Origin: Arcobacteraceae bacterium | GTDB taxonomy: Bacteria > Campylobacterota > Campylobacteria > Campylobacterales > Arcobacteraceae | Direction of reading: 5' to 3' | NCBI GenBank assembly: GCA_021107755.1 | Contig: JAIOSF010000026.1 | Location: 62,001-126,000 of the forward strand | DNA length: 64,000 bases | In this document: in pieces, positions 6,507-56,822 of the stretch | Layout: each line of letters begins with the position of its first letter | How positions within the stretch are numbered: the first letter of the stretch is position 1 | Made by a program: the position numbers and the translations under genes | Notes under the pieces: generated by a model | The model's input: only the letters and a program-made list of their open reading frames with translations | Database searches by the model: none | What the model was told of the DNA's origin: nothing

Positions 6507-6514
6507 ATACAAGT

Positions 6515-8269: not shown

Positions 8270-8329
8270 AGAAGAAATATAGCATAGTTTAAATAAAATG
8301 ATAAATATAATTTTTGAAAAGAGGAGATT

Positions 8330-9028: not shown

Positions 9029-9039
9029 AAACCTCTATT
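9016..9039. terminator. Bidirectional intrinsic terminator
   Basis: AATAGAGG and CCTCTATT form an 8-bp stem around an 8-nt A-rich loop, followed by a T-run on the plus strand. The hairpin overlaps the ends of both convergent genes and can serve both. Confidence 0.65.
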
Positions 9040-9970: not shown

Positions 9971-10038
9971 AATTTTCTCCTACTTTTAATATATTATTCT
10001 CACTTAAGAATCACCCTTATTACATATATCTCTATTTA

Positions 10039-10641: not shown

Positions 10642-10749
10642 TTTAAGCACCTTTTTTTAACTATACTAGTATTTTAAAATATTAACATCACATTTCATAT
10701 CACATTTTAAAAAAATAAAAATAGATGGTATAAAAAATGCAATGTATTC

Positions 10750-10768
10750 TCCTAAATTATATTTAGGA
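10750..10768 (+). promoter_or_regulatory. Inverted repeat containing the AAA-ATPase ribosome site
   Basis: TCCTAAAT and ATTTAGGA form an 8-bp stem with a 3-nt loop. The AGGA in the 3' arm is the Shine-Dalgarno sequence of the ATG at 10779. The layout copies the palindrome at 1931-1950 (TCCT...AGGA), so an RNA switch or operator is possible. Confidence 0.5.
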
Positions 10769-10778
10769 AAAGCATATT

Positions 10779-40510: not shown

Positions 40511-40535
40511 AAAATGAACACGGGTCATTCATTTT
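40511..40535. promoter_or_regulatory. TetR-type operator, left copy
   Basis: AAAATGAA and TTCATTTT form an 8-bp inverted repeat around 9 nt. Read on the minus strand, the inner 21 bp fit ATGAATGAC-N6-TCATTT, which recurs at 52375-52395 before the RND/Mla operon. Confidence 0.7.
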
Positions 40536-40547
40536 AGGAAGGTATTC

Positions 40548-41144
40548 ATGGCAATAATTGTAGACAAGGTACAAAAAAGAAAAGATATCGCACTTTCTTG
40601 TATAGATTTACTTCTAGAAAAAGGTATTAAGAAGTTAACTGTATCTGAAGTAGCAATTCAAGCAGGTGTTTCAAAGGGAAGTATTTATGATTACTTTGAA
40701 AACAAAGAAGATATTGTTTTTGAGATTATTAGAAATGATATAGAAAATTATCAAGATAACCTTTATGAACAGATAACTCCTACTATATCAACAAGAGAAA
40801 AAGTTTTTTTGTTATTTGATTTTTTGTTAAGTGAAAATGATATGTTTCAAAAACATCAAAATATATATAAAGAGTATGTGAGTATAAATTTAGGAACTCA
40901 TAATGATAATATGAGTGAATTTAATAAAGAGTGTTCTGTTTTTTTTAAAACAACTATAGAAAAGCTTATAAAAGAGGGGATAACTAAAGGTGAAATTATT
41001 GAAGATTCTTTAAAGCTAGTAGGTGGTTTTTTAGCTGTTGAAAAAGGTTTTTTAATGATACACTGGACAGAAGGAAAAGATGTGAAGGGTGAACTTAAAG
41101 AGTTTATAAATATGATATTTGATTTAATAGAGGTGAAAAAATGA
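40548..41144 (+). CDS. TetR/AcrR family transcriptional regulator of the envelope island
   Basis: The helix-turn-helix KLTVSEVAIQAGVSKGSIYDYFENKEDI is a clear TetR N-terminus. The C-terminal 130 residues are a helical ligand-binding domain. The ATG follows TTTAGGAAGG. The operator over the promoter indicates autorepression. The same operator is present 12 kb away at the head of the oppositely oriented RND-Mla operon, so this protein is probably the common repressor. Its stop codon overlaps the tolC-like gene start by 4 nt (ATGA). Confidence 0.92.
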   Translation: MAIIVDKVQKRKDIALSCIDLLLEKGIKKLTVSEVAIQAGVSKGSIYDYFENKEDIVFEIIRNDIENYQDNLYEQITPTISTREKVFLLFDFLLSENDMFQKHQNIYKEYVSINLGTHNDNMSEFNKECSVFFKTTIEKLIKEGITKGEIIEDSLKLVGGFLAVEKGFLMIHWTEGKDVKGELKEFINMIFDLIEVKK

Positions 41145-42376
41145 TAAAAAAAATATTTCCATTAGTTGTAATTCCATTTACAATTTATGCACAAGATTTA
41201 AGTAAGTTAGTTGAAGAGTCGTTTCAAAATCAACTTGTTAATTCTTCAAAATATGGTGTGGAGTCGGTGAGAGATCAATATGAAAGTGTAAAAAACAGTT
41301 ACTATCCAACTGTATCAATAGGTGCTAATTATAACAAAACAGATGAAGAGACTGCTTCAACTCCTGACAACTCAACAGCTAGTTGGGCAAATATAAACTA
41401 TGTTGTTTATGATGGAGGGAAAAGAGGAGCTACTAGTGATGCTTTAAGTTTTTCTATTAAAAGTGCAAGTGAAGATTTAACAGCTTTGAAAAATAACATC
41501 GCATTAGAGATTATAAATCATTATTTCAACTATTATGCATTGATATCAAAAAAAGAGGCAAAACTAAGAGAGATAGAGCAACTTAATGCACAATATAAAA
41601 GATTAAAAAGATTTTTGGATGTTGGAACAACCACAAGCGATGAGGTTGATAAAATAGTATCAAGAGTTCAAAGTGCAACAGTTGTATTACATGAGATTGA
41701 ACTTAATATTCAAACAATTATCCATAATTTACAATATCTAACTACAAATGAGATTAGTATTGAAGCTGGTTCAACGATGAAAGATACTTTACTAAAACAG
41801 GAAAGTTTACGAGCAGATATAAAATCTTTGGAGCATGAGATGAATGCTCAATTATTAACTGCAAGAGGGAGTAAAAGCTCAAACTATCCAATTTTAACTT
41901 TAGATGATACCTATACAAATTATGATTTTAATTATGATAATGCAACATATCAAAATAGTGTTACTATGGATGAACAAAATATTTTTAAAGCAAGTTTATC
42001 TTGGAAAATATTTGATTTTGGTGCAACTACAAGAACTTATGAGAGTAATTATAAAAAATATCTTGCTCTAAAATCGCAATATGAATATGAAAAAAACAAA
42101 GCAAGTATAGATTTAAAACTAGCAATCAAATCGTATGAGATAGGGAAACTCAAAATAGAATCAGCTAAATCAGCTTTAAAAGCTGCAAATAGCACTTATA
42201 ATACTATAGAGAAGAAATACCAAAATGGATTAGTAGACAATGTTGCATATCTTGAAGCCTTAAGTGAAAAATATTCAGCAATAAGTGCATTAAAATCATC
42301 GCAATATGATTTAGAGATAAAAAAAGCAAATATTATTTACCATAGTGGTAAAAACTTAGAAGATTATATTCAATGA
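41141..42376 (+). CDS. TolC family outer membrane efflux protein
   Basis: A signal peptide (about 1-16, ending IYA-Q) precedes a 390-aa body with the duplicated helical-barrel pattern of the outer membrane efflux family: ESVRDQYESVKNSYYPTVSIGANYNK in the first half and LSWKIFDFGATTRTYESNYKKYLALKSQYEYEK in the second, each shown as the typical strand-helix junction. TolC proteins form the outer-membrane exit duct. No RND pump is in this operon; the one at 48077-52330, under the same operator, is the likely client. Overlaps of 4 nt link it to both neighbours. Confidence 0.88.
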   Translation: MIKKIFPLVVIPFTIYAQDLSKLVEESFQNQLVNSSKYGVESVRDQYESVKNSYYPTVSIGANYNKTDEETASTPDNSTASWANINYVVYDGGKRGATSDALSFSIKSASEDLTALKNNIALEIINHYFNYYALISKKEAKLREIEQLNAQYKRLKRFLDVGTTTSDEVDKIVSRVQSATVVLHEIELNIQTIIHNLQYLTTNEISIEAGSTMKDTLLKQESLRADIKSLEHEMNAQLLTARGSKSSNYPILTLDDTYTNYDFNYDNATYQNSVTMDEQNIFKASLSWKIFDFGATTRTYESNYKKYLALKSQYEYEKNKASIDLKLAIKSYEIGKLKIESAKSALKAANSTYNTIEKKYQNGLVDNVAYLEALSEKYSAISALKSSQYDLEIKKANIIYHSGKNLEDYIQ

Positions 42377-43077
42377 CAAAATTTCTAATCTTCTTTTTTC
42401 TTTGCTTTTCAGCTGTAAATGCACAAGAGGTTTATGCAACATTTCAAGTAGTTGCAAAACAAAGTGCAAATTTAGCTTTTAATAGTAGTGGAATAGTAGA
42501 TGAAGTTTTTATTGATGTTGGAAGTGTAGTTAATCAAAATGATCAATTAGCAATTTTAAAAAATAAAGATATAAAAGCTATGTTACATATTTATGAAACA
42601 TCTTTAAAATATGCAAAAAAAGATTATGAAAGACAATCACAAGTACAAGACCTAATAGATAAGGCAAAGTTTGACAACTATGAGATGGCTTATGAAGAAG
42701 CAAAAGCTCAAGTTGAGTATCAACAATCATTGTTAGATAAAACTACTTTAAGAGCACCTTTTGATGGTATGATTATCTCTAAAGAGATAGAAAGTGGTGA
42801 TGTTGTAAGTGGACAAGTTATCAAAACAGCTTTTACAATACAAAGTAGTGTATCTCGTAAACTTATCTTAGAATTTGATCAAAAGTATCATTCTGTAGTA
42901 AAAGTTGGAGATATATTTAAATACAAATTAGATGGAGATGATACAATACATAGCCAGAAGATATCCAAAGTATATCCTTATTCAAATACCTCTACAAGAA
43001 AAATAAAAGCAGAAGTTATTACAAAAGATTTGATGGTTGGATTATTTGGTGATGGATATATTCAAGTGAAGAAATAG
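42373..43077 (+). CDS. Short periplasmic adaptor (HlyD/RND type)
   Basis: After a signal peptide (to about residue 17), the protein has a biotinyl-lipoyl-like half (SGIVDEVFIDVGSVVNQNDQLAIL), a short helical hairpin, the second lipoyl half (TTLRAPFDGMIISKEIESGDVV) and a beta-barrel. At 234 aa it is much shorter than normal RND adaptors (350-400 aa) since the membrane-proximal domain is small or missing. Pump partner is unclear. It overlaps tolC by 4 nt and pldA follows after 1 nt. Confidence 0.85.
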   Translation: MTKFLIFFFLCFSAVNAQEVYATFQVVAKQSANLAFNSSGIVDEVFIDVGSVVNQNDQLAILKNKDIKAMLHIYETSLKYAKKDYERQSQVQDLIDKAKFDNYEMAYEEAKAQVEYQQSLLDKTTLRAPFDGMIISKEIESGDVVSGQVIKTAFTIQSSVSRKLILEFDQKYHSVVKVGDIFKYKLDGDDTIHSQKISKVYPYSNTSTRKIKAEVITKDLMVGLFGDGYIQVKK

Positions 43078-43078
43078 G

Positions 43079-44296
43079 ATGTTTAAAGCTTATTATCTCA
43101 TAATATTATTATACTCATTACTCCTAGCTAATGATATGTCTAATTATACTCAAGGTTTAGAGTTCTATAAAACAAAGCAATATGAAAAAGCTTATCCTAT
43201 AATACTTCAAGAAGCACAAAGGGGAAACAAAGAAGCTCAATACTTATTAGCTTTATTTTATGAAAATGGATTAGGGGTCAAAAAAGATTTAATAGAATCT
43301 ATCTCTTGGTATAAACAAGCGTCTTCAACTTATGCTTATATTACTCAAACCCAAGAAAATAATACTACACAAACTATCACAACAGCAGATGTTGTAGATG
43401 ATGAAAATAATCAAGAGCAAAAAGGTTTACAATTTATATTTAGTAAAATGGATTTAAGTTCCCCAAATGTAAAAGATGAAGTTGGAAAAATAGTGAATAA
43501 AAATTTTGGTATTTTACCGTATCACTCTAATTATATTTTACCAATTTCATACAATAAAAATAGCTATACAAAAAAATATTCAACAACACAAATAAGTGAT
43601 GAAAAATATGATAGCAATACAGAAGCTGAGTTTCAACTAAGTCTTCAAAAGAATCTAAGTTATAATCTTTTTGGCTTTAATGAATATATCTCATTAGGGT
43701 ATACACAACATGTTTGGTGGCAACTATACACTGATTCAGCACCTTTTAGAGAGACAAACTATACACCTGAGTTTTTTGTTACAGTTCCAACCTCTTATCA
43801 TATTGATAAACTTAATAATCTTAAAGCTATAAGGTTTGGGTATCGTCATCAATCAAATGGACAAGATGGATATAGGTCTCGTTCTTGGGATAGATTATTT
43901 TTAGCTACATTTTGGCAGTGGGATAACTTATTTGTAAAAGTTGAAGGATGGTATAGAATACCAGAAGATAGAAAAGGACAAGAGTTTTATAATGGAGTAG
44001 ATATTAATGCTAAAGGGGATGATAATCCCGATATTTTGGATTATTATGGGTATGGAGATATTGATATAAAATATTTATATGGAAAACATCAATTTGGATT
44101 GATGTTACGAAATAATCTTAAATCAGATAATAATAAAGGTGCAGTACAACTAGATTGGTCTGTACCAGTGAGTGATTCTAAAAATACCTATTGGTATGTA
44201 AAAGTTTTTAATGGATATGGGGAAAGTTTGATAGATTATGATAAAAGCAATACTAAAATAAGTTTTGGTTTTTCATTTTTTAGAAGTTTATTTTAA
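43079..44296 (+). CDS. pldA: Outer membrane phospholipase A (OMPLA) with N-terminal Sel1-like repeat
   Basis: OMPLA degrades phospholipids that reach the outer leaflet of the outer membrane. A signal peptide (about 1-17) is followed by a Sel1-like repeat (about 20-85; AQYLLALFYENGLGVKKD), a linker, and the 12-stranded barrel (about 140-405). The active-site block is HQSNGQDGYRSRSWDR. His and Ser match residues 142 and 144 of the E. coli enzyme, while the position of Asn156 is Asp. The closing block GYGESLIDYD is nearly identical to E. coli. The Sel1 part is not in the E. coli protein. It is the fourth gene of the TetR operon. Confidence 0.92.
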   Translation: MFKAYYLIILLYSLLLANDMSNYTQGLEFYKTKQYEKAYPIILQEAQRGNKEAQYLLALFYENGLGVKKDLIESISWYKQASSTYAYITQTQENNTTQTITTADVVDDENNQEQKGLQFIFSKMDLSSPNVKDEVGKIVNKNFGILPYHSNYILPISYNKNSYTKKYSTTQISDEKYDSNTEAEFQLSLQKNLSYNLFGFNEYISLGYTQHVWWQLYTDSAPFRETNYTPEFFVTVPTSYHIDKLNNLKAIRFGYRHQSNGQDGYRSRSWDRLFLATFWQWDNLFVKVEGWYRIPEDRKGQEFYNGVDINAKGDDNPDILDYYGYGDIDIKYLYGKHQFGLMLRNNLKSDNNKGAVQLDWSVPVSDSKNTYWYVKVFNGYGESLIDYDKSNTKISFGFSFFRSLF

Positions 44297-44396: not shown

Positions 44397-44624
44397 ATGG
44401 GAAGAGCAAACAACTCAAGTGTTGATACAACAAAAGGTGATAGAATTGCACAGAAAATGAATGTTTATAAAAATAATTTAAAAGCAGGATTTAACCCTGA
44501 TGCAGCAGAACAAAAAGAACAAGTTGTTAATGCTAGAAAAGGTGTCAACTTAGAAGCCCAAAAAGCAAAGAAAAAGAAAAATGCAAAACTAGCAAAAGCT
44601 GCAAAGAGAAAAAATAAAAAGTAA
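44397..44624 (+). CDS. Small basic protein (75 aa)
   Basis: The product is 75 aa, begins GRANNSSVDTTKGDRIAQ and ends in a Lys/Ala-rich helix (KKKKNAKLAKAAKRKNKK). I do not recognise a family. There are two tandem ATGs (44394 and 44397). The second has better spacing from CAAGG. It is 100 nt after pldA and may have its own promoter. It meets the lipoprotein gene of the Mla operon tail to tail with 16 nt between. Confidence 0.62.
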   Translation: MGRANNSSVDTTKGDRIAQKMNVYKNNLKAGFNPDAAEQKEQVVNARKGVNLEAQKAKKKKNAKLAKAAKRKNKK

Positions 44625-44640
44625 TAATAGTTTATAATGT

Positions 44641-45237
44641 TTAACAAATGGAAACAATCCATTTATCAATCTCTTCTAGTACTTTTGTAAATGCTTTATT
44701 GAAAGCTTTAACTCCACCATAAGCATCTTGTGTTGCACTATTTATAACAGATGAAAAAGTTTTTGAATGGATGACGGTATTTGAGTTATAGTCTATTAGT
44801 GAGATATTGATTATAACTTTTACATATGATGATTTTGAATCTTCACTAAAATATTGTTTAAAATCTATTATGTTACTTTGAATTATGTAGTCATCTTTTG
44901 TGATGGATTTGTAGTTTTGTACACTTTTAAAAACATCTAATTGACTTAACATATTAGTGAGATTTATGGTGACCATTTGATTAACTGGAATACTCCACTG
45001 TGACTTGGTAAAAGAGTATTGTTTATATTTGCCTAAAATATAATTCATATTGGTACTCATAAGAGTATTATCACTAAAAGCTTGGAGTACTTTTAATGTT
45101 TTATTATTACATTTTTTTGATATTTCATTTTTTGGAAACTCTTTTATCTTCATGTTGTATTCTGTAATATAGGGTTGTTTTACACTACAACCTGTCACTA
45201 TTGTAATTAGGATAAATAAACTTATACTTTTTAACAT
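44641..45237 (-). CDS. Lipoprotein, ABC-transport auxiliary (PqiC-like) component
   Basis: A lipoprotein signal with lipobox VTGC (Cys about residue 17) starts the protein. The remaining 180 residues resemble the ABC-type transport auxiliary lipoproteins (PqiC/DUF330 kind) that accompany MCE proteins: LQAFSDNTLMST, IPVNQMVTINL, DDYIIQSNIIDFKQYF and SKTFSSVINSATQDAYGGVKAFNKA. It is the last gene of the operon, 3 nt after mlaD, and probably works with MlaD at the outer membrane. Confidence 0.78.
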   Translation of the reverse strand: MLKSISLFILITIVTGCSVKQPYITEYNMKIKEFPKNEISKKCNNKTLKVLQAFSDNTLMSTNMNYILGKYKQYSFTKSQWSIPVNQMVTINLTNMLSQLDVFKSVQNYKSITKDDYIIQSNIIDFKQYFSEDSKSSYVKVIINISLIDYNSNTVIHSKTFSSVINSATQDAYGGVKAFNKAFTKVLEEIDKWIVSIC

Positions 45238-45240
45238 TTT

Positions 45241-46200
45241 TTACTCCCCTGGACCTTTTTTAATCTCTTCTGTTTTAAATATAATATCAGCTGGACTTCT
45301 ATTATAATTTTTAATAGAATCTTCAAGTTTTATCATAAGAGTTTCCATCTGAATCAGAGTATTATTAAGATTTGGAATAGTATCTTTTGTTATATCTTTA
45401 AAATTAAAGTCACCCTTTGAAATAGCTTTTTCTATTTCATTCATAGTAGCTCTTACCGATAAATAACTTTTTGTAATAGAATTTATATTTTGAATTAATG
45501 TATTTTCAAAATCAGTAGTATTTGTTACTAATGTATCAATTTTTGGTACTAAATTATCAACTTTATTGGTAATATTATCTGAGTTTTCTAAAATATTATT
45601 AAAATGCTTTATGGTTTTTTCATCAACTAATCGATCCATTTTATTCATAAAACTCGTAGTTTGTTTTAAAAGAAGTGAAACTTGCTCTTGATTCTCTTCA
45701 TTAAGTAATTGTTCTATGTTTGATAATACTTTTGAAACCTTATTGGATACAGTATCCATAGATTTTTCAATATTCTCAAAAAGAGAAGGGGTAGTTTTAA
45801 TTACTGGATATTGTTCACCCTCTTGAGCTTTTAAAAATGGTGCGTTATTATCTCCTAAATTAAGATTAATATAGCTCAGTCCTGTTATCCCTTGAGATGT
45901 TAATTTTGCTACAGTTTTTTCTTTTATGGGAGTTGTTTTTAAAATAGTTATGAGTACTTCTACTTGTTCGGTGTTTTTTGGATTTATTTTAATGCTGGTA
46001 ACTTTTCCTACATCTATTCCTCGATATTTAACTACTGAATCAACATTTAAACCTAAAACTGATTCATCAAAACGAATAAGGTATTTTTTTGTTTCATTCT
46101 CTTGTTCAGGTTTTAATAACCAGTAAGAAAAAGTTAACATCAAAAAGAATCCAATAATTACTAAAAATCCAACTAAAGTATAATTAACTCTATTATTCAT
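45241..46200 (-). CDS. mlaD: MlaD-like MCE domain protein
   Basis: An N-terminal membrane anchor (about 7-28) is followed by one MCE domain (about 40-120) with the signature VKYRGIDVGKVTSIKI and LTSQGITGLSYINLNLG. The last 190 residues form a long, mostly helical coiled region containing the pattern NITNKVDNLVPKIDTLV. MlaD rings bind phospholipid and sit between the inner-membrane transporter and periplasmic partners. E. coli MlaD has no such long C-terminal extension. The gene overlaps mlaF by 1 nt. Confidence 0.9.
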   Translation of the reverse strand: MNNRVNYTLVGFLVIIGFFLMLTFSYWLLKPEQENETKKYLIRFDESVLGLNVDSVVKYRGIDVGKVTSIKINPKNTEQVEVLITILKTTPIKEKTVAKLTSQGITGLSYINLNLGDNNAPFLKAQEGEQYPVIKTTPSLFENIEKSMDTVSNKVSKVLSNIEQLLNEENQEQVSLLLKQTTSFMNKMDRLVDEKTIKHFNNILENSDNITNKVDNLVPKIDTLVTNTTDFENTLIQNINSITKSYLSVRATMNEIEKAISKGDFNFKDITKDTIPNLNNTLIQMETLMIKLEDSIKNYNRSPADIIFKTEEIKKGPGE

Positions 46201-46937
46201 TAAGTATTACCTCCAAAAAATGTATTAATAAATTCACTTTGTATTGAACTTATATTATCTAAAGTACCCTCATAAATAATTTTTTTATCATCAATGACAG
46301 CAAATCTATCCATAGTGTTATGGATTGATTTTAAATCATGGGAAACCATGACAATAGTTAGTTTTAATAAATCTCTTAAGTTTACAATAAGTTTATCAAA
46401 ATCTCTTGCTGAAATAGGGTCTAAGCCACTTGTTGGTTCATCTAAAAAAAGAAGTTTCGGATCAAGTGCTAAAGCCCTTGCTAGTGCTGCTTTTTTTTTC
46501 ATTCCACCACTTATTTGAGATGGATAAAGTGTAGCATCTGAGAGTTTTAATCCTACAATATTTAATTTAAAAGCTACTATTTCATTTACCATCTTATCAT
46601 TTAAATCTGTATATTCTTGAAGAGGTAAAGCGATATTTTGTGCGAGCGTAAGTGAAGAAAATAGGGCGCCAAATTGAAATAAAACTCCCCATTGTTGTCG
46701 TAAATTTTGAGCTTCATTAACACTAATATGATTTAAGTCTTTTCCTAGAATATGAACTGTACCACTATGAATTTTGTCAAGCATAACAATCTCTCTAAGA
46801 AGTGTCGTTTTTCCACACCCACTGGGACCTAAAAGTCCATATATTTCTCCATTATTGATACTAAGATTCAATCCATCATGTACAACTTTATCTCCAAAAA
46901 TTGTTTTGAGTTCTTTTACATTTATTATCTTTTTCAT
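46200..46937 (-). CDS. mlaF: MlaF-like ABC ATPase
   Basis: This is the ATPase of the Mla lipid transporter. Walker A is GPSGCGKTT, the Q-loop is LFQFGALF, the signature is SGGMKKKAALARA (the form typical of MlaF/Mkl ATPases), Walker B is LLFLDEPTSGLDP and the switch His is in VSHD. The length of 245 aa is normal. Stop and start codons overlap by 1 nt with mlaE upstream and mlaD downstream, so the three subunits are translationally coupled. Confidence 0.94.
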   Translation of the reverse strand: MKKIINVKELKTIFGDKVVHDGLNLSINNGEIYGLLGPSGCGKTTLLREIVMLDKIHSGTVHILGKDLNHISVNEAQNLRQQWGVLFQFGALFSSLTLAQNIALPLQEYTDLNDKMVNEIVAFKLNIVGLKLSDATLYPSQISGGMKKKAALARALALDPKLLFLDEPTSGLDPISARDFDKLIVNLRDLLKLTIVMVSHDLKSIHNTMDRFAVIDDKKIIYEGTLDNISSIQSEFINTFFGGNT

Positions 46938-48052
46938 TAAATGCCTAAATTTGTAAATATGATAGAAAAAATTGCATCACAAATAATAACTGCAAAGATA
47001 GATTCAACAACACTTTTTGTTGTATTATATCCTATACTTTGAGTATCATCTTTTACCATAAGTCCTCTATATATCGCAATAGAAGCAATAAGTATGGCAA
47101 AAAAAGGTCCTTTTGCAATACCAACTAAAAAATGTCGTATCTCAATAACATTGCTAAATCTGTCTAAGAATAAATCAAAACTAATCCCTAAATCTAAATT
47201 TGCGATTATCATACCACCAAAAACAGCCATGATATCAGATACAAAGATTAGTATAGGCATCATAATGATAAGTGCAATAACACGAGGTAAAACTAAAAAT
47301 CTATAAGGGTCAAAGCCCATCGTTCTCATAGCATCTAACTCTTGTGTAATTTTCATAGCACCAATTTGTGCAGTGTATGAAGAGCCACTTCTTCCAGCAA
47401 TTATAACAGCTGTAATAACAGGAGATAGTTCTCTTAGCATAGAAAGCCCTATCATATCCACTATAAATATATTTGCACCATATAAGCTTAATTGATTAGC
47501 AGATTGATAGGCTATAACAACTCCTATAAGAAAACTACTTAATGCAATTATAAAAAAAGCTTTTATTGCACTTTCATTCATCTCAAATAAAATCTCTTTG
47601 TATCTTATTGTTTTTGGTGATTTTAATAAATAAATTAAATTGATAAAAAGTTCACCGAAAAAATCTAAAAAATGTAAGAAACCAAGATAGTATTTGTGTG
47701 CTTTTTGACCTATATATTTTATGATATTATTTTGTTTGTTATAAAGAGATAGAGTATTTTTTTGTTTTTTTGTTTTTACGAGTTCTAAAGTATCGAGAAT
47801 ATTTTTATTTGTAGTATTAATAGTTACAGTTATATTTTGTGAAGAGTATTTATCATATAAATTTATTAGATATATGGCTGAAGCTGTATCTATAAAAGTA
47901 AGTTCAGATAAGTCAATAATGATTGCTTTAAAATTTGAAACATTAATAGCATCAATTAAAACTTGGTATTTTGAAATACTGTACAAAGTAAACTCTTCTT
48001 TAAAAATAAGGGAGAGTTTTTCATTGTCATATTTGAAAAATAAATTATCCAT
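46937..48052 (-). CDS. mlaE: MlaE-like permease with N-terminal STAS domain
   Basis: The first 110 residues form a STAS domain (IIIDLSELTFIDTASAIYLINL). The rest is the MlaE permease with about five membrane segments, including SFLIGVVIAYQSANQL, LSMLRELSPVITAVIIAGRSGSSYTAQIGAMK and ELDAMRTMGFDP. In E. coli the STAS protein (MlaB) is separate, here it is fused. The ATG is 24 nt after the RND pump gene and its ribosome site is in a small hairpin (48059-48072). Confidence 0.93.
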   Translation of the reverse strand: MDNLFFKYDNEKLSLIFKEEFTLYSISKYQVLIDAINVSNFKAIIIDLSELTFIDTASAIYLINLYDKYSSQNITVTINTTNKNILDTLELVKTKKQKNTLSLYNKQNNIIKYIGQKAHKYYLGFLHFLDFFGELFINLIYLLKSPKTIRYKEILFEMNESAIKAFFIIALSSFLIGVVIAYQSANQLSLYGANIFIVDMIGLSMLRELSPVITAVIIAGRSGSSYTAQIGAMKITQELDAMRTMGFDPYRFLVLPRVIALIIMMPILIFVSDIMAVFGGMIIANLDLGISFDLFLDRFSNVIEIRHFLVGIAKGPFFAILIASIAIYRGLMVKDDTQSIGYNTTKSVVESIFAVIICDAIFSIIFTNLGI

Positions 48053-48076: not shown

Positions 48077-51000
48077 TTATTTACCTATTTCTTTTGTTTT
48101 ACTAAATTTTTGTTTTACTCTTACAACCAGATAGAAAAATAATGGTATAAACAATACCCCTATAACCATAGCAGCAATCATACCACCAACAACAGTTGTC
48201 CCAATGATATGACGGCTAGCACTTCCAGCACCACTACTTAATGCTAGTGGTAAAGTCCCCACGATAAAAGCTAATGAAGTCATAATAATAGGACGAAATC
48301 TTAATCGTGCGGCTTCAATAGTTGCATCTAGTAAACTCATACCATCTCTTAGTTTATCCATAGCAAATTCAACGATTAAAATAGCATTCTTTGCGCTAAG
48401 TCCCACTAGGGTTACAAGTCCAACTTGAAAATATATATCAGCTTCTAATCCTCTTAAATATACAGCAACAGCCGCTCCAAATATAGCAAATGGTATAGAG
48501 ATAATAACAGCCATAGGGATACTCCAGCTTTCATAAAGTGCAGCAAGGATTAAGAATACAAATATCGCTGCATATAATGATGTATAACTCCCTTCATTAG
48601 CTAGTTTTTTCTCTTGAAAAGATGTTCCAGCCCAAGCAATTGTATACCCTTCAGGAAGAACACTAGTAGCAATCTCTTCTATAGCTTCTAGAGCATCACT
48701 TGAAGCATAACCAGCACCTGGATTCCCTGTGACATTTGCTGATTGAAACATATTAAATCTTTGTATTACACTTGCATTTACTTTTCGTTCAAGTTTTACA
48801 AGTTCACTTACAGGTACAAGTTCTCCATCATTTGAACGAACATAGATATTTTTAAATTGCTCTTGAGTTGCTCTATATTGAGACATGGATTGGATATTAA
48901 CATGGAAAGTTCTTCCATATAAATTAAAATCATTAATATACCCTTTTCCAAATGTATTTTGAATATTTGCAAAAATAGAATCTATTGTAATATTCATAGA
49001 CTTTGCTTTTTGTCTATCAACTGTTAATAAGTATTGTGGAATATTTGTATTTAATGTTGTTCTCATCCCTGCAAGCCTTGGGTCTTGAGATGCTTTGGCA
49101 ATAATTTCTTGTGTATAAGTATTTAGAGTAGATAACTCTCCACCTGTTCTATCTTGTATCCACATCTCAAATCCGCCAGTTGCACTCATACCCATAATAG
49201 GAGGTGGATTTACAGGGATAACAAAAGCATCTTTCCCTTGCATAAATTGTCCCATAAGTTGCCCTGCAAGTACTTGAGAGTTTTGATTTGCATCTGGTCT
49301 TTCATCCCAAGGTTTTAACATAGCAAACATAATAGCTGCATCTGTTCTATAAGCAAATGTTGCAAGGTCAATACCTGTAATTGCTCCAACACCAATGATA
49401 TTTGGATTTGCTAAAAGTTGTTTTTCTATATCTTTTGTGATTATAGATGATTCACCAAGTGAAGTTGATGGCATAAGGTATGTAAGTACTAATAGTACCC
49501 CTTTATCTTCTGTTGGTACAAGTCCTGCTGGTGTTTGTTTCATAATACCATAAGTTGAAAATAAAAGTCCACCAAATAAAAAAAGTGAAAATACCCATTT
49601 TTTTATAGTGAATTTCGTAATTCCTAAAAATCTAATTGTAAGCCAGTCAAAAAAGTCATTAAACTTTTTAATAGGATATATTGGTTCAGATTCATGTTCT
49701 TTTAAAAATATTGCACATAAAGCGGGAGTAAGAGTAAGTGCTACAAGTCCAGAGATAACAACAGCCATAACAATAGTAATAGCAAATTGTTTATACATAA
49801 CTCCACTAAATCCACCACTTAAAGCTGCTGGAATAAATACAGCAGATAAAACAAGTACAATAGCTACAAGTGGAGTAGTAAGCTCTTTCATAGCTTCTAT
49901 AGTTGCATCTTTTACACTAATTGTTTTAGTTCGTAAGATTCTCTCAACATTTTCTATAACAATAATAGCATCATCAACAACCAGTCCAATAGCCAAAATC
50001 ATACCAAAAAGTGTAAGCAAGTTTATAGAAAAACCAGCAGCATAAAGTCCAGCAAATGTTCCTATAACAGATACAGGAATTGCTAGAACTGGGATAATAG
50101 TAGCTCTAAAGTTTCCTAAAAATAGATATATTAAAATTGTAACAAATACAATAGCTTCAAGTAAAGTTTTAATAACCTCTTTGATTGATTCATTTACAAA
50201 TAGTGTTGCATCGTACGGTACTTTATATTCTAAGTCTTCAGGAAATTTTGTTTTTAATTCTTTTAAAGTATCATCAAGTGCTTGTGAAACATCTAAAGCG
50301 TTTGCACCTGGTGATAAAAATATACCAACTGGCATCATTGGTTCACTATTGTATCTTCCCATTGTATTAAGAGCATCAGCCCCAAGTTTAACTTGTGCAA
50401 TATCTTTTAGTTTTAGTGTTGAACCATCAGTGTTTGAACGGATAATAATATTTTCAAACGCCTCAACATTTTTAAGGCGACCTTCTGTTGCTATAGAGTA
50501 AGTAAAAGGTGTAACCTCTTTTATTGGTTCTGCACCTACTGTTCCTGTTGAATATTGATTGTTTTGGCTTTGAATTAACTTGTTTACTTCACTAGGAACA
50601 AGATTGTAAAATGCCAACTTATCTGGGTCTATCCAAATTCTTATAGCATAATCTTTAGCCCCAAATACTACTACATCACCCACACCTTTAATTCTTTTTA
50701 AATCATCAAGTACATTGATTGTTAAGTAGTTTGAGATAAATGTTGTATCATGAACATTATCTTTTGATGTAAAAGCCAAAACTTTTAACATATCAGGAGA
50801 TCTCTCTTTTACTGTAATCCCTTGTCTTTGTACCTCAGGAGGTAATTTATTTAGTGCTAGTTGTACACGGTTGTTAACATCTACTTTTGCTTGTGCTACA
50901 TCTGTTCCAACTTCAAAAATAATACTAATTGAAAGTGTACCACTTGGACTTGCAGTAGAAGTCATATATGTCATATCTTCTACACCATTGATTGCATTTT

Positions 51001-51199
51001 CTAGAGTAGTTGCTACAGTTGCAGAGAGTGTTGCAGCATCGGCACCTGGATATACAGCTTGTACATTTATCTGAGGTGGTGTAACAGCAGGATACTCTTT
51101 TACTGGGAGGATATTTATAGAAATAATACCTGCAAGTATTATCAATACTGATATTACAGTTGCAAATATAGGTCTATTTATGAAAAACTTTGAGAACAT
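48077..51199 (-). CDS. RND efflux pump, HAE1 type (AcrB-like)
   Basis: The 1040-aa protein is a full-length hydrophobe/amphiphile efflux pump with twelve membrane segments. FFINRPIFATVISVLIILAG opens it. The proton-relay residues are present: the Asp pair in VVDDAIIVIENVER (segment 4) and Lys in GLSAKNAILIVEFA (segment 10). The porter-domain block DVNNRVQLALNKLP also fits. It works with the adaptor encoded just upstream and needs a TolC duct, for which the gene at 41141-42376 is the obvious candidate. Confidence 0.95.
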   Translation of the reverse strand: MFSKFFINRPIFATVISVLIILAGIISINILPVKEYPAVTPPQINVQAVYPGADAATLSATVATTLENAINGVEDMTYMTSTASPSGTLSISIIFEVGTDVAQAKVDVNNRVQLALNKLPPEVQRQGITVKERSPDMLKVLAFTSKDNVHDTTFISNYLTINVLDDLKRIKGVGDVVVFGAKDYAIRIWIDPDKLAFYNLVPSEVNKLIQSQNNQYSTGTVGAEPIKEVTPFTYSIATEGRLKNVEAFENIIIRSNTDGSTLKLKDIAQVKLGADALNTMGRYNSEPMMPVGIFLSPGANALDVSQALDDTLKELKTKFPEDLEYKVPYDATLFVNESIKEVIKTLLEAIVFVTILIYLFLGNFRATIIPVLAIPVSVIGTFAGLYAAGFSINLLTLFGMILAIGLVVDDAIIVIENVERILRTKTISVKDATIEAMKELTTPLVAIVLVLSAVFIPAALSGGFSGVMYKQFAITIVMAVVISGLVALTLTPALCAIFLKEHESEPIYPIKKFNDFFDWLTIRFLGITKFTIKKWVFSLFLFGGLLFSTYGIMKQTPAGLVPTEDKGVLLVLTYLMPSTSLGESSIITKDIEKQLLANPNIIGVGAITGIDLATFAYRTDAAIMFAMLKPWDERPDANQNSQVLAGQLMGQFMQGKDAFVIPVNPPPIMGMSATGGFEMWIQDRTGGELSTLNTYTQEIIAKASQDPRLAGMRTTLNTNIPQYLLTVDRQKAKSMNITIDSIFANIQNTFGKGYINDFNLYGRTFHVNIQSMSQYRATQEQFKNIYVRSNDGELVPVSELVKLERKVNASVIQRFNMFQSANVTGNPGAGYASSDALEAIEEIATSVLPEGYTIAWAGTSFQEKKLANEGSYTSLYAAIFVFLILAALYESWSIPMAVIISIPFAIFGAAVAVYLRGLEADIYFQVGLVTLVGLSAKNAILIVEFAMDKLRDGMSLLDATIEAARLRFRPIIMTSLAFIVGTLPLALSSGAGSASRHIIGTTVVGGMIAAMVIGVLFIPLFFYLVVRVKQKFSKTKEIGK

Positions 51200-52330
51200 C
51201 TAGTTTCCTTGTTCGTTAATTATCTTATCTACAACAACATCTGCACCTGGTTTTACTCTAAAGAAATTATTTACAATTACTCTATCTCCACTTTGAAGTG
51301 GACCACCAGCTACAACATATTTATCACCTGTTTCTTTTCCTATCATTACAGGTTTCACTCCAACTTTTCCACCATTTTCTATAAATACAATTGTTCCCAT
51401 AGGATTTTGTAAAACAGCTTTTTGTGGTATAGTGATAACATCTTTTTGTACAATATCATTAAGTATAACTCTTATAAAATTTCCTGGCATTAAAAAGCTA
51501 GCACTATTATTAACTATTGCTCTCATTTTTACTGTTGATGTATTTTGATTTATATTTACATCAATAAAGTCTATTATACCTGTATAAGTAGTAGGTTTTT
51601 CATTGATTTCTATATTTACTTTTACTTTTTTATCCTCTGGTAATGACCATAAATTATTCTTAATATTTTTATAATCACTTAATGGCATAGAAAAATCTAT
51701 ATAAACTTGCTCATTTTGAGTTATAGAAGTTAGTTCTTGTGGTGGATTATTCGTAACTAAATCTCCAATATCAACTTTTTTTAAACCAACAATACCACTA
51801 ATTGGTGCTTTTACATTTGTAAAATTTAAATCAATTTTTGCTTGAGTTAATTTTGCCTTAGCTAAAGCATATGATGCAGTTGCTTGTTCATATTCTGATA
51901 ATGCATCATCTCTTTTTTCAACACTTACTGATTTTGTTTTATAAAGTCTTTTTATTCTTTCCCAGTTTCTTGAAGCATTATTCATTGAAGCTTCATTCAT
52001 TTGTACAGATGCAGTTGCCTCAGCAACTCTTGCTTTATAAATATCATCTTCTATTTTATATAATAAATCACCTTGGTTTACTTTTTGACCCTCAGTGAAA
52101 TGTTTACTTTCTAACACTCCTAAAACTCTTGAAAACACTTTTATATTTTGAAATGATTTAATTTGCGCTGGATATTTTAAAATGATTGGTAAGTTTTGTG
52201 GCTGCGGTACAACATATATATCTGCTTTAGGTGCTGGCATTTTTTTTGCTGGTTGGGCTGAGAAGCTCATAGTTGGTATTACAAGTAGTGTAGCTACTGT
52301 TACAATAATTGATTTTGTGAACTTTTGCAT
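51200..52330 (-). CDS. RND efflux periplasmic adaptor (AcrA-like)
   Basis: A signal peptide (about 1-26, ending SFS-AQ) is followed by the lipoyl halves (FSRVLGVLESKHFTEGQKVN and FTNVKAPISGIVGLKKVDIGD), a helical hairpin (EATASVQMNEASMNNASRNW), the beta-barrel and the membrane-proximal domain. There is no lipobox Cys, unlike AcrA. The length of 376 aa is normal. The pump gene begins directly after its stop codon. AAGGAAAACT precedes the ATG. Transcription probably starts near the operator at 52375-52395. Confidence 0.94.
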   Translation of the reverse strand: MQKFTKSIIVTVATLLVIPTMSFSAQPAKKMPAPKADIYVVPQPQNLPIILKYPAQIKSFQNIKVFSRVLGVLESKHFTEGQKVNQGDLLYKIEDDIYKARVAEATASVQMNEASMNNASRNWERIKRLYKTKSVSVEKRDDALSEYEQATASYALAKAKLTQAKIDLNFTNVKAPISGIVGLKKVDIGDLVTNNPPQELTSITQNEQVYIDFSMPLSDYKNIKNNLWSLPEDKKVKVNIEINEKPTTYTGIIDFIDVNINQNTSTVKMRAIVNNSASFLMPGNFIRVILNDIVQKDVITIPQKAVLQNPMGTIVFIENGGKVGVKPVMIGKETGDKYVVAGGPLQSGDRVIVNNFFRVKPGADVVVDKIINEQGN

Positions 52331-52374: not shown

Positions 52375-52395
52375 ATGAATGACTCAGAGTCATTT
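52375..52395. promoter_or_regulatory. TetR-type operator, right copy
   Basis: ATGAATGAC-N6-TCATTT, which contains the perfect 15-bp palindrome ATGACTCAGAGTCAT. It lies about 45 bp upstream of the RND adaptor ATG, within the expected promoter, and matches the operator of the TetR gene at 40512-40532 in 15 fixed positions at identical spacing. Confidence 0.72.
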
Positions 52396-52540: not shown

Positions 52541-53152
52541 GTGTTAGAGCAAAATAAAACAAAATATTATCCTTATGGATTGGCTTGTTTAATTATAATG
52601 ATTTTTGTAATTTTGTCTATACAACCAAGTGATAGATCAGTTTGGGTTATTGAAGTTATACCTGTAGTTAGTATTTTTTTATTGTTGCTATTTACCTTTG
52701 ATAGATTTAGGTTTAGTAATTTATCATACACTTTGATTAGTATTGGATTGATTTGGCATACTATAGGTGCTCATTATACTTTTGCAAATGTTCCTTTTGA
52801 TTTTATTACACAGCAATTTGATTTTCAAAGAAATCATTATGACAGAATAGGGCATTTTTTAGTTGGTTTATATGCTTATCCAATAGCAGAATTTATGGAA
52901 AAAAAAAGATATACAAATTATGTGGTAGCAGTATTATTTGCACTTTTTTTTATCATGAGTATCGCTTGTGGTTATGAGATAGTTGAGTGGATATATGCTG
53001 ATATTGAGAGTGGAAATAGAGGTATAGAGTTTTTAGGCTCTCAAGGTGATAGCTGGGATGCTCAAAAAGATATGTTGGCTAATACACTTGGTGCTGTTGT
53101 TTCATTGTGTTTGTTTTGGTACATTAGACCTGATGAAGCAAGTAAGTATTAA
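52541..53152 (+). CDS. DUF2238 (YjdF-like) inner membrane protein
   Basis: The product has six membrane segments and the DUF2238 blocks: IGAHYTFANVPF, NHYDRIGHFLVGLYAYPIAEF, CGYEIVEWIYA and GSQGDSWDAQKDMLANTLGA. The conserved His, Asp and Glu residues in the membrane are reminiscent of the VanZ-like superfamily. The function is unknown. The start is a GTG with AAAAAGGGAG upstream. A TATAAT box at 52479-52484 may be its promoter. The next gene starts 18 nt later. Confidence 0.88.
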   Translation: MLEQNKTKYYPYGLACLIIMIFVILSIQPSDRSVWVIEVIPVVSIFLLLLFTFDRFRFSNLSYTLISIGLIWHTIGAHYTFANVPFDFITQQFDFQRNHYDRIGHFLVGLYAYPIAEFMEKKRYTNYVVAVLFALFFIMSIACGYEIVEWIYADIESGNRGIEFLGSQGDSWDAQKDMLANTLGAVVSLCLFWYIRPDEASKY

Positions 53153-53170: not shown

Positions 53171-53797
53171 ATGGAAAATAAAAGAATAGATGAGATTGTT
53201 TTACAGATAAAAGAACTTGAAGATGAGCTTCTTGAGGAGTTTAAGAAAAAAGAGGAGCAGTTTTTTTACAGAATAGAAAATGAAAAAGTGAAATTTCAAG
53301 AAAGAGTTATTAAAGAGGGAAAATCTAAAATAATAAGTTCTATAAAATATCTTTCATCTTTTCCATTGGGGGTTATTCTTACCATTCCTTTTATTTGGGC
53401 TATGATTATTCCTATAGTTATGACAGATATATTTGTAAGTATCTATCAAGCTATTTGTTTCCCTATTTATAAGATACCAAAAGTAAAACGAAAAGAGTAT
53501 GTGATAATTGATAGATATAATCTCTTTTATCTTGACAGGGTACAAAAAATAAATTGTTGGTATTGTGAATATTTTAATGGTGTTGTTGCATATGTAAGAG
53601 AGATAGCTGCCCGAACAGAACAGTTTTGGTGTCCCATAAAACATTCAAAATCATTAAAAGAGAAACACTCACGATATGATAATTTTTTTGATTTTGGTGA
53701 CTATATAAAATATCGAGATGAAATAGAAAATCAAAGGTTGAATTTTGATGATTTATTAGAGAAGAAAGAAGAGCAAAAAAAGGAGACAGATGTATAA
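53171..53797 (+). CDS. Hypothetical membrane protein with cysteine motif (208 aa)
   Basis: I do not recognise a named family. The first 50 residues form a charged coiled coil, then one long or two short membrane segments (about 62-100), then a soluble part with NCWYCEYFNGVVAYVREIAA and QFWCPIKHSK. Three Cys and a His in this block could bind a metal. The ribosome site is AAAAGGAAAAA. It overlaps the RND pump start by 8 nt, so it is translationally coupled to the pump and possibly an accessory subunit. Confidence 0.7.
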   Translation: MENKRIDEIVLQIKELEDELLEEFKKKEEQFFYRIENEKVKFQERVIKEGKSKIISSIKYLSSFPLGVILTIPFIWAMIIPIVMTDIFVSIYQAICFPIYKIPKVKRKEYVIIDRYNLFYLDRVQKINCWYCEYFNGVVAYVREIAARTEQFWCPIKHSKSLKEKHSRYDNFFDFGDYIKYRDEIENQRLNFDDLLEKKEEQKKETDV

Positions 53798-56700
53798 ATT
53801 TGCCATAAATAGACCCATTACAACACTTATGGGTGTATTGACTTTTATAGTTTTTGGACTTATGTCATATAAAACTATGCCTATAAATCTTTTCCCAAAT
53901 GTGGATTTTCCTGTTGTTACAATTCAAACAGCATATAATGGTGCAGATGCAAGTACTGTTGAGACTAAAATTACTGATAAAATTGAAGAGGTAGTCAGTG
54001 GAATTGATGGTATAGATAAGCTGATGTCAAGTAGTTACGATGGCTTAAGTGTAGTGACTATTCAGTTTGAACTTTTTAAAGACTTAGATATAGCAACAAA
54101 TGATGTAAGAGATAAAATAGGCTCTCTTATATTGCCAGATGAAGCAGAAAAATCAGTTGTTAAGAAGCTAGGAGCTACAGGGGCTGTTATCTCACTTTTT
54201 GTATCTACAAAAAAAGGGGATGCAACAGCTTTGATGCGATTAGCAGATGAGAAACTAAAGCCAAAACTTCAAAGAATACAAGGAGTAGGAGAGGTAAATA
54301 TTGTAGGGTATCAAGATAGAGAGATACGAATATACATTAATCCTTTTTTACTCAATAAATACAATTTAACCCCTTATGAACTCCAGCAAATAATAAGTAG
54401 CCAAAATATTTCACAAGGGGCAGGAAAACTTATCAATGATGATAAAGAGATAATCATAAAAGTACAAGCAGATGCCCTTAGTGTGGAAGCATTATCCAAT
54501 ATATTTATAAAACAAGGTATCAAGTTAAAAGATATTGCTAAGATTGAAGATGGGTTAAGTGATACGAGTAGTTTCTCTTCATACAATGGAAATCAAGGTG
54601 TAATGCTTGAGGTGAAAAAAATATCTGGTGAAAATGTACTCAATATTATCAAAGGTGTTAAAGAAGTTTTACCAAGACTTGAAACAATAGCAGGGGAAGA
54701 TTACCAAATACAGTTATTACAAGATCAAAGTGATAAGATAATGGTAAATATAAATAATGTAACTTTTGACCTTATTTATGGTTCTATTTTGGCTATTATA
54801 ATTGTATTTTTCTTTTTACGAAATTTTACTGCAACTTTTGTTTCTGCTCTTGCAATTCCTACTTCTATTATAGGTACCTTTGCTATTATTGATTGGTTGG
54901 GGTATGATTTAAATCGTTTGACACTTATTGGTCTTACATTAGCTATTGGGATATTTATCGATGATGCTATTGTTGTTATTGAAAATATTACCAAAAAACT
55001 AGAGCAGGGACTTGAGCCATTTAAAGCTTCAGTTGAAGGGATCAAAGAGGTTGCTTTCTCTATCTTAGCTATCTCTTCTGTTTTACTTGCTGTTTTTATA
55101 CCAGTTGCTTTTATGGATGGGATTGTGGGGATGTTTTTTAACTCTTTTGCCATGACTGTTGCTGCTGGTATTATATTGTCTTATCTAGTAGCTGTTATGT
55201 TTATTCCTACTGTTGGTGCTAGAGTTTTAAATGCAAGTGAAAGTAAGTTTTACCATTTTACAGAGCCTTTTTTTGTGAAGTTAGATAAAACTTATGTTGC
55301 TATATTAAAACAGCTTTTGAGATTTAAAACATTAACTATAGTTTTAACTATTGGATTACTTATAGCTTCTACAAAACTTACTGTTGGTATGGATTTTATG
55401 CCTATGGAAGATAATAGTGAGTTTCAAGTATTTATTAAAGCACCAGTTGGTACAAATCTAGAAAATATGAAACAAAAAATACAATCATTAGTTGATAAAA
55501 TAGAAAAAGACAGTGTTGTTGAATATAGTGTAATCTCTATAGGATACAATAGTGCAAAAGAGATAAACAAAGCGAAAATTTATGTAAAGATGAAACCAAA
55601 AGAGCAGAGAGCGGGTATCTCTCAAGAGGATATGGTAGTAAAATATACCAATGAGTTTAAATCAATTAAAGATATGACAATTACAGTTGAAGACTTACCA
55701 CCTTTTGATACAGGAAGTTCTAATGCCCCAGTTCAAATTGTAATAACAGGAGATAGCCTAGATGTACTGGAAAAAACCACAACAAAAGTTATGGAGATGT
55801 TGCAAAATACAAAAGGGCTAGTAAATATAGATAGAGACTATGAGAGTGGAAAACCACAAATTAAAATCAATATCAAAAGACAAAATACTCAAGTAGCAGG
55901 GGTGAGTGCAAACGAGATAGCAGGGGTATTAGCAAGTGCATATAGTAGTGATAGAGCAATCTCTTTTTATGAAGAGAAAGGGAGACAGTTTGATATAACA
56001 CTTCGATTTGAAGATCAGTATAGAAAATCAATTGATGATATGAAAAGATTACAGGTGCGAGCTAGTAATGGGGAGTTTGTATCTTTAGAAGGGCTTGTAA
56101 CTTTCCAAGAAGATACAACAACTGCTTCTATAAATAGATTTGATAGGGAGAGAAAAGTTCTCGTAACTGCTGGGTTGTTTGGCGATAGTTTAAACAATGT
56201 TGTAACAACAATAGATACAAATATAAAAGAATTGTTACCACAAGGGTATAACTATAGATATACAGGGGATATAGAAAATATGGCAGATACAGCAGCTGCA
56301 TTTGGTGGTGCTGTACTTTTAGCTGTTATATTGATATATCTTATTTTAGCAGCACTGTATGAATCTTTTTTACAACCTTTGATTATTATGGTTTCTATGC
56401 CTCTATCTTTTACTGGGGTTATGGTAGCTTTATATTTAAGTGGAAATAGTTTTAGTTTATTTGTGATGATTGGTATAATCTTACTTTTAGGTATGGTTGG
56501 GAAAAATGCGATTTTAGTTGTTGATTTTGCAAATAAGGCAGTGGAAGATGGAAAAAGTGTAGATGATGCACTTTTAGAAGCTGGTGAGAAACGGCTTCGA
56601 CCAATTTTGATGACAACATTTGCTATGATTGGTGCTATGGCACCACTTGCATTTGGAACAGGTGCAGGGAGTGAGTCAAATGCACCTATGGCATTAGCTA

Positions 56701-56822
56701 TTATTGGGGGACTTGTAAGTTCTACAGTGCTGACACTCCTTGTTGTACCTGCAATGTATAAGTTTATCTATCCTGTGGATAGATTTTTAAGAAAATTTTA
56801 TGAGAAGGGGAAAGTTGTATGA
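53790..56822 (+). CDS. RND efflux pump (second), without adjacent adaptor
   Basis: The 1010-aa protein is a full-length RND pump: FAINRPITTLMGVLTFIVFG opens it, and twelve membrane segments are expected. The proton-relay Asp pair is in IFIDDAIVVIENITKK and the Lys in GMVGKNAILVVDFA. The two large periplasmic loops are present. There is no adaptor or TolC gene in this operon, unlike usual HAE1 pumps. Either it borrows the adaptors at 42373 or 51200, or the gene at 53171 replaces the adaptor. The 3' end overlaps the DUF2798 gene by 4 nt. Confidence 0.93.
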   Translation: MYKFAINRPITTLMGVLTFIVFGLMSYKTMPINLFPNVDFPVVTIQTAYNGADASTVETKITDKIEEVVSGIDGIDKLMSSSYDGLSVVTIQFELFKDLDIATNDVRDKIGSLILPDEAEKSVVKKLGATGAVISLFVSTKKGDATALMRLADEKLKPKLQRIQGVGEVNIVGYQDREIRIYINPFLLNKYNLTPYELQQIISSQNISQGAGKLINDDKEIIIKVQADALSVEALSNIFIKQGIKLKDIAKIEDGLSDTSSFSSYNGNQGVMLEVKKISGENVLNIIKGVKEVLPRLETIAGEDYQIQLLQDQSDKIMVNINNVTFDLIYGSILAIIIVFFFLRNFTATFVSALAIPTSIIGTFAIIDWLGYDLNRLTLIGLTLAIGIFIDDAIVVIENITKKLEQGLEPFKASVEGIKEVAFSILAISSVLLAVFIPVAFMDGIVGMFFNSFAMTVAAGIILSYLVAVMFIPTVGARVLNASESKFYHFTEPFFVKLDKTYVAILKQLLRFKTLTIVLTIGLLIASTKLTVGMDFMPMEDNSEFQVFIKAPVGTNLENMKQKIQSLVDKIEKDSVVEYSVISIGYNSAKEINKAKIYVKMKPKEQRAGISQEDMVVKYTNEFKSIKDMTITVEDLPPFDTGSSNAPVQIVITGDSLDVLEKTTTKVMEMLQNTKGLVNIDRDYESGKPQIKINIKRQNTQVAGVSANEIAGVLASAYSSDRAISFYEEKGRQFDITLRFEDQYRKSIDDMKRLQVRASNGEFVSLEGLVTFQEDTTTASINRFDRERKVLVTAGLFGDSLNNVVTTIDTNIKELLPQGYNYRYTGDIENMADTAAAFGGAVLLAVILIYLILAALYESFLQPLIIMVSMPLSFTGVMVALYLSGNSFSLFVMIGIILLLGMVGKNAILVVDFANKAVEDGKSVDDALLEAGEKRLRPILMTTFAMIGAMAPLAFGTGAGSESNAPMALAIIGGLVSSTVLTLLVVPAMYKFIYPVDRFLRKFYEKGKVV

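Follow-up and report, generated by a model that had tools for sequence, protein, structure and literature searches.

Which inner-membrane pump is served by a TolC duct and a short periplasmic adaptor that share an operon with an outer-membrane phospholipase and no transporter, and why is the phospholipase there? This question is raised by positions 40548-44296 of a 64,000-nucleotide stretch from an Arcobacteraceae bacterium (contig JAIOSF010000026.1, positions 62,001 to 126,000; here called the window), which hold genes for a TetR-family regulator, TolC, the adaptor, and the phospholipase PldA. An earlier sequence-only reading had proposed this four-gene unit, and its coordinates and junctions, two 4-nucleotide (nt) overlaps followed by a 1-nt gap, were confirmed by the open reading frames (ORFs), with Pfam supporting the identity of each gene, as follows (lengths in amino acids, aa).

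40548-41144, + strand: TetR-family regulator, first gene of the operon (198 aa; Pfam TetR_N, 1.7e-12)
41141-42376, + strand: TolC-family outer-membrane duct in the HefA/CmeD position (411 aa; OEP, 2.5e-38; 4-nt overlap with TetR)
42373-43077, + strand: short HefB/CmeE-type periplasmic adaptor (234 aa; HlyD_D23, 1.4e-11; 4-nt overlap with TolC)
43079-44296, + strand: PldA, outer-membrane phospholipase A with an N-terminal Sel1-repeat extension (405 aa; PLA1, 1.4e-83; 1-nt gap)

No transporter gene lies inside the unit, and to that extent the earlier statement that nothing was present to power export was right. However, the usual pump ortholog, RND2, is found at 53790-56822 on the same strand, 9.5 kb downstream. 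We consider it probable that the unit represents the leading part of a HefABC/CmeDEF-type tripartite efflux operon, its pump gene being now 9.5 kb distant, and that it serves TetR-controlled efflux of amphiphiles, with PldA recruited for outer-membrane lipid stress. In favor of this reading, we observed which genes are present, their orthology, the contiguity of the adaptor and pump genes in related genomes, and a recurrent coupling of PldA to efflux genes. Compared loci and genomes are cited below by L and G numbers, respectively.

The short adaptor and its probable, now separate pump

The RND2 transcription unit consists of three genes.

52541-53152, + strand: DUF2238 membrane protein, first gene of the unit (DUF2238, 6.2e-47)
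53171-53797, + strand: P208, a conserved protein with no Pfam match (its counterpart in G046 and G050, 75-80% identical, is located between HefB and RND2)
53790-56822, + strand: RND2, HefC/CmeF-type RND pump (ACR_tran, 889 bits)

The genes at 52541 and 53171 were also considered as a TetR and a second short adaptor, which was ruled out by Pfam and sequence, the former being a DUF2238 protein and the latter an unrelated one. In about 20 loci examined, an ortholog of the short adaptor is followed by an ortholog of RND2; in most of these loci TolC, and in several TetR, precedes the pair. The order is TetR-TolC-adaptor-RND in L094, L099, L100-L102, L106, and L107, TolC-adaptor-RND in L093, L097, L098, and L104, and TetR-adaptor-RND in L103. 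Adaptor, P208, and RND2 are contiguous in G046 (L090) and G050 (L089), where RND2 is 80-83% identical to that of the window, and because of this contiguity the window adaptor and RND2 look like the two ends of one ancestral operon, now about 10 kb apart.

Sequence identities between loci point the same way. Those of the adaptors correlate with those of the pumps (0.74; 171 pairs from 19 loci), and the window adaptor and RND2 follow the pattern of L089 and L090, in which the two genes are adjacent, including an unusual combination of low adaptor identity and high pump identity toward L100-L103. RND2 is 71% identical to the pump of the TetR-TolC-HefB-RND operons and 42.5% identical to the Helicobacter pylori-like HefC (L109), and its HefC/CmeF class is assigned from such identities, the H. 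pylori-like locus, and the published branch rather than from an RND phylogeny with a named CmeF. The upstream genes of the unit have relatives in the same operons. TetR is 37-42% identical to the TetR heading the TetR-TolC-HefB-RND operons of relatives, its top NCBIfam matches, Bacillus-type FadR and MtrR, both being far under the cut-off. TolC is 51% identical to the TolC of a TolC-HefB-HefC operon (L097) and 39-40% identical to those of L100 and L102, and only 23% identical to the TolC of two PldA-linked HAE1 operons (L189 and L198). As judged from these comparisons, RND2 is the likely partner of the short adaptor.

The 234-aa adaptor had been described as an orphan of about two thirds of the usual length. 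That proportion is correct relative to AcrA and MexA, but 234 aa is the normal length in the HefB/CmeE family (about 230-250 aa), and the orphan status could not be upheld, with HefB/CmeE orthologs present throughout the class and RND2 downstream. Twenty orthologs of 225-249 aa align end to end with the window adaptor at 32-59% identity, and a profile built from the orthologs found family members in 323 of 397 Campylobacterota genomes. An AlphaFold2 model of the adaptor (pLDDT 90) shows a barrel-sandwich, an alpha-hairpin of two helices (residues 65-90/97-122, each arm about 26 residues long), and a beta-barrel that extends to residue 231, and the membrane-proximal domain of full-length adaptors is absent from it. 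The lengths of the orthologs suggest that this absence is probably shared by the whole HefB/CmeE group; it marks a subtype and does not exclude these proteins from the periplasmic adaptor family. Foldseek matched the model to MacA and MexA, a search of the PDB brought up only more distant adaptors, and a plasmid search gave distant general adaptors only, with at most 29% identity among the matches listed. A literature search of limited library coverage found no account of short adaptors lacking the membrane-proximal domain, which does not prove novelty.

Two side observations concern P208 and split RND pumps. P208 is present in 15 of 104 family genomes, with RND2, AI-2E, or unrelated genes as neighbors. 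In addition, some RND pumps are encoded as two adjacent half-genes of about 520-540 and 550-580 aa (G000 contig C10, L048 8190-9803 and 9754-11493; L108; L003; L118), at some loci together with TolC and an adaptor of 251-265 aa. These half-genes are probably the product of real gene fission rather than a frameshift, because they are conserved at 42-53% identity in several genomes. Nothing on split RND genes was found in a literature search, the library coverage being limited and novelty thus not proven.

PldA beside efflux genes

The window PldA matches the PLA1 barrel (PF02253) at 280.8 bits against a cut-off of 27, together with a Sel1 repeat, and its residues 142-398 align with Escherichia coli OMPLA structures (7ezz and 1fw2). 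It is a predicted enzyme that keeps His and Ser of the catalytic H-x-S motif and has Asp in place of the triad Asn. Of the 86 PldA proteins with a recognizable motif, 5 have this replacement (SRSWD versus SRSWN), namely, those of the window, G072, and three more.

To judge the position of this gene, we used 92 PldA loci of the order, picked by similarity or as one per genus, with neighborhood not being a criterion. PldA lies directly 3′ of a co-oriented tripartite-efflux component in 9 of them, and with one gene between in two more (L003 and L012). The order is MFP-RND1-type-TolC-PldA in L125, L126, L198, L189, and L033 (genera g10, g15, and g18), TolC-MFP-RND-PldA in L195 of G544, and MFP-MFS-TolC-PldA, with an EmrB-like MFS, in L174 and L175 from two genera of family f8; the ninth locus is the window. 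The efflux systems linked to PldA thus vary in type (HAE1-type RND, EmrB-like MFS, and the HefBC type of the window), and a 4-nt overlap joins PldA to the preceding gene in L125, L126, L174, and L195. L125 and L126 have two PqiA genes upstream, together with an MCE gene. Further cases were taken from G078, G087, G089, and a more complete view of G077, later and apart from this unbiased look.

As a control, only 2 of 666 other genes in the unlinked PldA loci adjoin a same-strand tripartite-efflux component. With the window left out, the binomial probability of 8 in 91 at the control rate is ~5e-10, and that of about five lineages in 60 is ~1e-6, both to be read as orders of magnitude, since the base rate comes from two events and the number of lineages is an estimate; genome-wide base rates were taken from genome stretches. 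TolC-family domain matches number 4-34 per genome (up to two per protein), and this abundance lifts the expected rate of adjacency, though to less than 10%. The linked/unlinked label changes 9 times on the PldA tree, well-supported branches also forcing 9, and its clustering is barely above that of shuffled labels (40 of 500 as low), so that the linkage appears to have been gained or lost many times. PldA lies elsewhere in the sister genomes G079, G088, G063, and G064, and other genomes have the same pump operon without PldA.

These counts support the coupling of PldA to efflux genes as a recurrent association across pump types, genera, and families. The sequence-only reading had named confinement of pldA and tolC as neighbors to this one strain as the outcome that would speak against it, and synteny gave a different result: PldA lies directly after a TolC or RND gene in further genera and families as well, beside different pumps, and it is only the exact order that is peculiar to this genome. 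PldA and adaptor as a fixed syntenic unit was dropped as an idea for that reason. No description of the gene linkage was found in the literature on PldA with efflux, in a search that mostly did not cover subscription literature and does not prove novelty. A broader proposal, which we put forward tentatively and regard as improbable at present, is that Campylobacterota PldA would be a fourth component of several tripartite systems, recruited independently to pump operons of the HefBC, HAE1, and EmrB types. Gene order and translation would then couple the hydrolysis of phospholipids at the outer membrane to removal of the fatty acids or lysophospholipids formed, often beside an MCE lipid transporter.

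Several observations weigh against the reading of the unit as an efflux operon with a recruited PldA. The exact TetR-TolC-HefB-PldA order occurs in this genome only, so a recent accident at this site is possible, and the closest PldA relatives, one from the same genus (L002) and one from another metagenome-assembled genome (MAG; L004), are not beside TolC. RND2 now belongs to a separate transcription unit and is not necessarily co-regulated with the TetR unit; promoter and terminator scans of the locus were not discriminating. Some of these points fit an account in which the HefABC/CmeDEF-type operon stands and PldA landed behind the adaptor by chance rearrangement, sharing nothing but the promoter. 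Consistent with chance, about 100 family genomes include no second case of the exact arrangement, the surroundings of PldA are mostly unrelated, and L002 and L004 are unlinked. However, the excess of linked loci over controls, the scatter of the linkages on the PldA tree, the differing pump types, and the frequent 4-nt overlaps are difficult to reconcile with it, as is the accumulation of patatin, LpxR, and MCE genes in these clusters (see below). We therefore regard a chance insertion as unlikely.

A small ORF was also read from the sequence 3′ of PldA (44397-44624, + strand); it would encode a very basic, Lys/Ala-rich product of 75 aa and was absent from the genes of the sequence-only reading.

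Intervening genes, a second pump, and the regulator

About 10 kb of mostly lipid-related genes separates the adaptor from RND2, comprising PldA, DUF2238, and, between these two, an MCE/Mla-like transporter joined to a CmeB-type pump. The opposite-strand genes follow the order MFP1-RND1-MlaE-MlaF-MlaD-PqiC.

44641-48052, - strand: MCE (Mla-like) lipid transporter run (MlaE 46937-48052, MlaF 46200-46937, MlaD 45241-46200, PqiC-like lipoprotein 44641-45237)
48077-51199, - strand: RND1, CmeB/AcrB-type permease (ACR_tran, 1047.9 bits; RND_permease_1 above cut-off)
51200-52330, - strand: MFP1, full-length adaptor of RND1 (376 aa)

The sequence-only reading had mentioned the RND pump of this operon and passed over its lipid transport genes. 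A MlaE permease, an ABC ATPase, and an MCE-domain protein are all present together in the run (Pfam MlaE, 1.1e-72; MlaD, 4.4e-17; ABC_trans_aux, 1.3e-6). Its genes share 63-79% identity with a block in G054 and G083 that has the order patatin-DUF2238-AI-2E-MlaE-MlaF-MlaD-PqiC, which in G083 continues with an MFS fragment and LpxR. DUF2238 is found with patatin, AI-2E, MCE, or P208 in L114, L115, and L118, and the order in G047 is RND(N half)-RND(C half)-patatin-DUF2238-AI-2E-P208. The MAG contig L003 carries PldA-LpxR-RND(N)-RND(C)-patatin (6123-12394), LpxR being a lipid A deacylase, an apparent lipid-remodeling and efflux cluster. In genus g6 (L091, L092, L095, and L096), a small multidrug-resistance gene and a patatin-like phospholipase lie between the HefB-type adaptor and RND2. 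Genes for lipid hydrolysis and lipid transport are thus repeatedly in clusters with these pumps.

Two candidate regulator sites were found.

40513-40529: probable TetR operator, predicted, just before the TetR start codon, AATGAACACGGGTCATT
52378-52394: perfect 17-bp palindrome upstream of MFP1-RND1-MCE, a weak candidate for a second site of the same regulator, AATGACTCAGAGTCATT

A TGAC-type dyad is found at the same place before the TetR orthologs in L094 and L099-L103, and because it is kept before the TetR start in these loci and in the window, TetR autoregulation is likely. The exact pattern of the window dyad occurs once in the genome. No site in the window matches the L100-L103 operator better than the palindrome at 52378-52394 (14 of 17 positions); one such match was obtained in 3 of 12 random sequences, and matches with at most 2 mismatches numbered 3 against 1.64 expected. 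Co-regulation of MFP1-RND1-MCE through this palindrome was consequently set aside as weak, the match not being rare enough.

The opposite-strand pump had been suggested as the client of the short adaptor, and in this alternative the adaptor and TolC would serve RND1, or at least TolC may be shared with it. Orthologs of RND1 with 78-81% identity are in TolC-MFP-RND operons with TolC in front, and RND1 might use the 41141 TolC as well, because MFP1-RND1 has no TolC of its own here; a single TolC is often common to several pumps, and the palindrome upstream of MFP1 resembles the TetR operator. Against this, RND1 is of the CmeB/AcrB type and has its own full-length, 376-aa adaptor of the right type, orthologs of the short adaptor precede HefC/CmeF-type and not CmeB-type pumps, the window TolC is closest to TolCs of HefB-HefC operons, and the palindrome match is weak. 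On balance, RND1 is quite improbable as the client. A pump-less route, in which TolC and the adaptor would export PldA products by themselves, has gene adjacency alone in its favor and can practically be dismissed, given that the cognate pump RND2 is in the genome, that TolC ducts need an energized inner-membrane partner, and that PldA acts at the outer leaflet, from where its products need not cross the duct.

As a separate observation, the MCE run of the window lies directly behind RND1 and its adaptor, all in the same orientation; the RND1 relatives have a TolC in its stead, and the MCE relatives read have no pump. The upstream RND gene of L195 (2709-5819 in G544), the one preceding PldA, is in two open frames, where a pseudogene or a sequencing error is possible.

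Proposed function and known systems

We propose that an ancestral operon was interrupted by about 10 kb of mostly lipid-related genes. TetR would bind the dyad before its own start codon and repress TetR-TolC-HefB-PldA; TolC and the short adaptor would assemble with RND2 from the second unit, DUF2238-P208-RND2, and the resulting pump would expel detergent-like amphiphiles. PldA, induced together with TolC and the adaptor, would hydrolyze phospholipids that reach the outer leaflet after amphiphile damage, and the nearby MCE transporter may carry lipid from one membrane to the other. Repression, co-assembly, substrate, and division of labor are what we infer here. Removal of PldA-released fatty acids and lysophospholipids by RND2 is a further possibility, although we find this export of PldA products doubtful. 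The fatty acids and lysophospholipids that PldA yields have a role in outer-membrane homeostasis (PMC5874903, PMC13170283). Export of fatty acids derived from membranes has been reported for an RND pump (PMC3247133), and HefC and CmeF form one separate RND branch, with HefC acting on bile salts (PMC4790245).

The closest known counterpart is HefABC of H. pylori, which likewise has a TolC, an adaptor of ~235 aa, and an RND pump of ~1010-1028 aa of one family. In the H. pylori-like L109, which we take to be the hefABC locus from its gene order, a flagellin-like gene precedes uroporphyrinogen decarboxylase, TolC (478 aa), MFP (235 aa), and RND (1028 aa), which follow in this order, and the adaptor is 42% identical to that of the window. 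HefABC, through its pump HefC, reportedly confers resistance to bile salts and ceragenins. The window differs in that TetR heads the operon, PldA follows the adaptor, and the pump is 9.5 kb off behind DUF2238 and P208. CmeDEF of Campylobacter jejuni is similar in that CmeF branches with HefC (PMC4790245) and the adaptor family is class-wide, a likeness drawn from the published grouping rather than from C. jejuni sequence. However, CmeDEF is one operon with all three components (PMC8300790) and has no PldA, whereas the components in the window are separated. Systems of the CmeABC/AcrAB type are represented by RND1 and MFP1 and differ from the short-adaptor system in adaptor length and pump branch.

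The lipid components compare in the same way. E. coli OMPLA (PldA) shares the PLA1 domain, the barrel, and the H-x-S motif with the window PldA, whereas the N-terminal Sel1 extension, Asp for the triad Asn, and the coupling to an efflux operon are found in the window only. The MlaE, MlaF, MlaD, and PqiC-like lipoprotein genes in one run resemble Mla/Pqi MCE transporters, and MCE genes commonly have a DUF330 lipoprotein downstream (PMC5561183). Unlike in those systems, an adaptor and a CmeB-type RND pump come before the run in the window, where we identified neither MlaA nor MlaC.

The orphan status once suggested for the short adaptor gives way to a different picture, in which the lack of a membrane-proximal domain appears to be normal in the HefB/CmeE group, itself common throughout the class. 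Natural substrates are known for only a minority of RND pumps, and PldA repeatedly joining the operons of different tripartite pumps points to breakdown products of membrane lipids or lipid-disordering amphiphiles as a physiological client.

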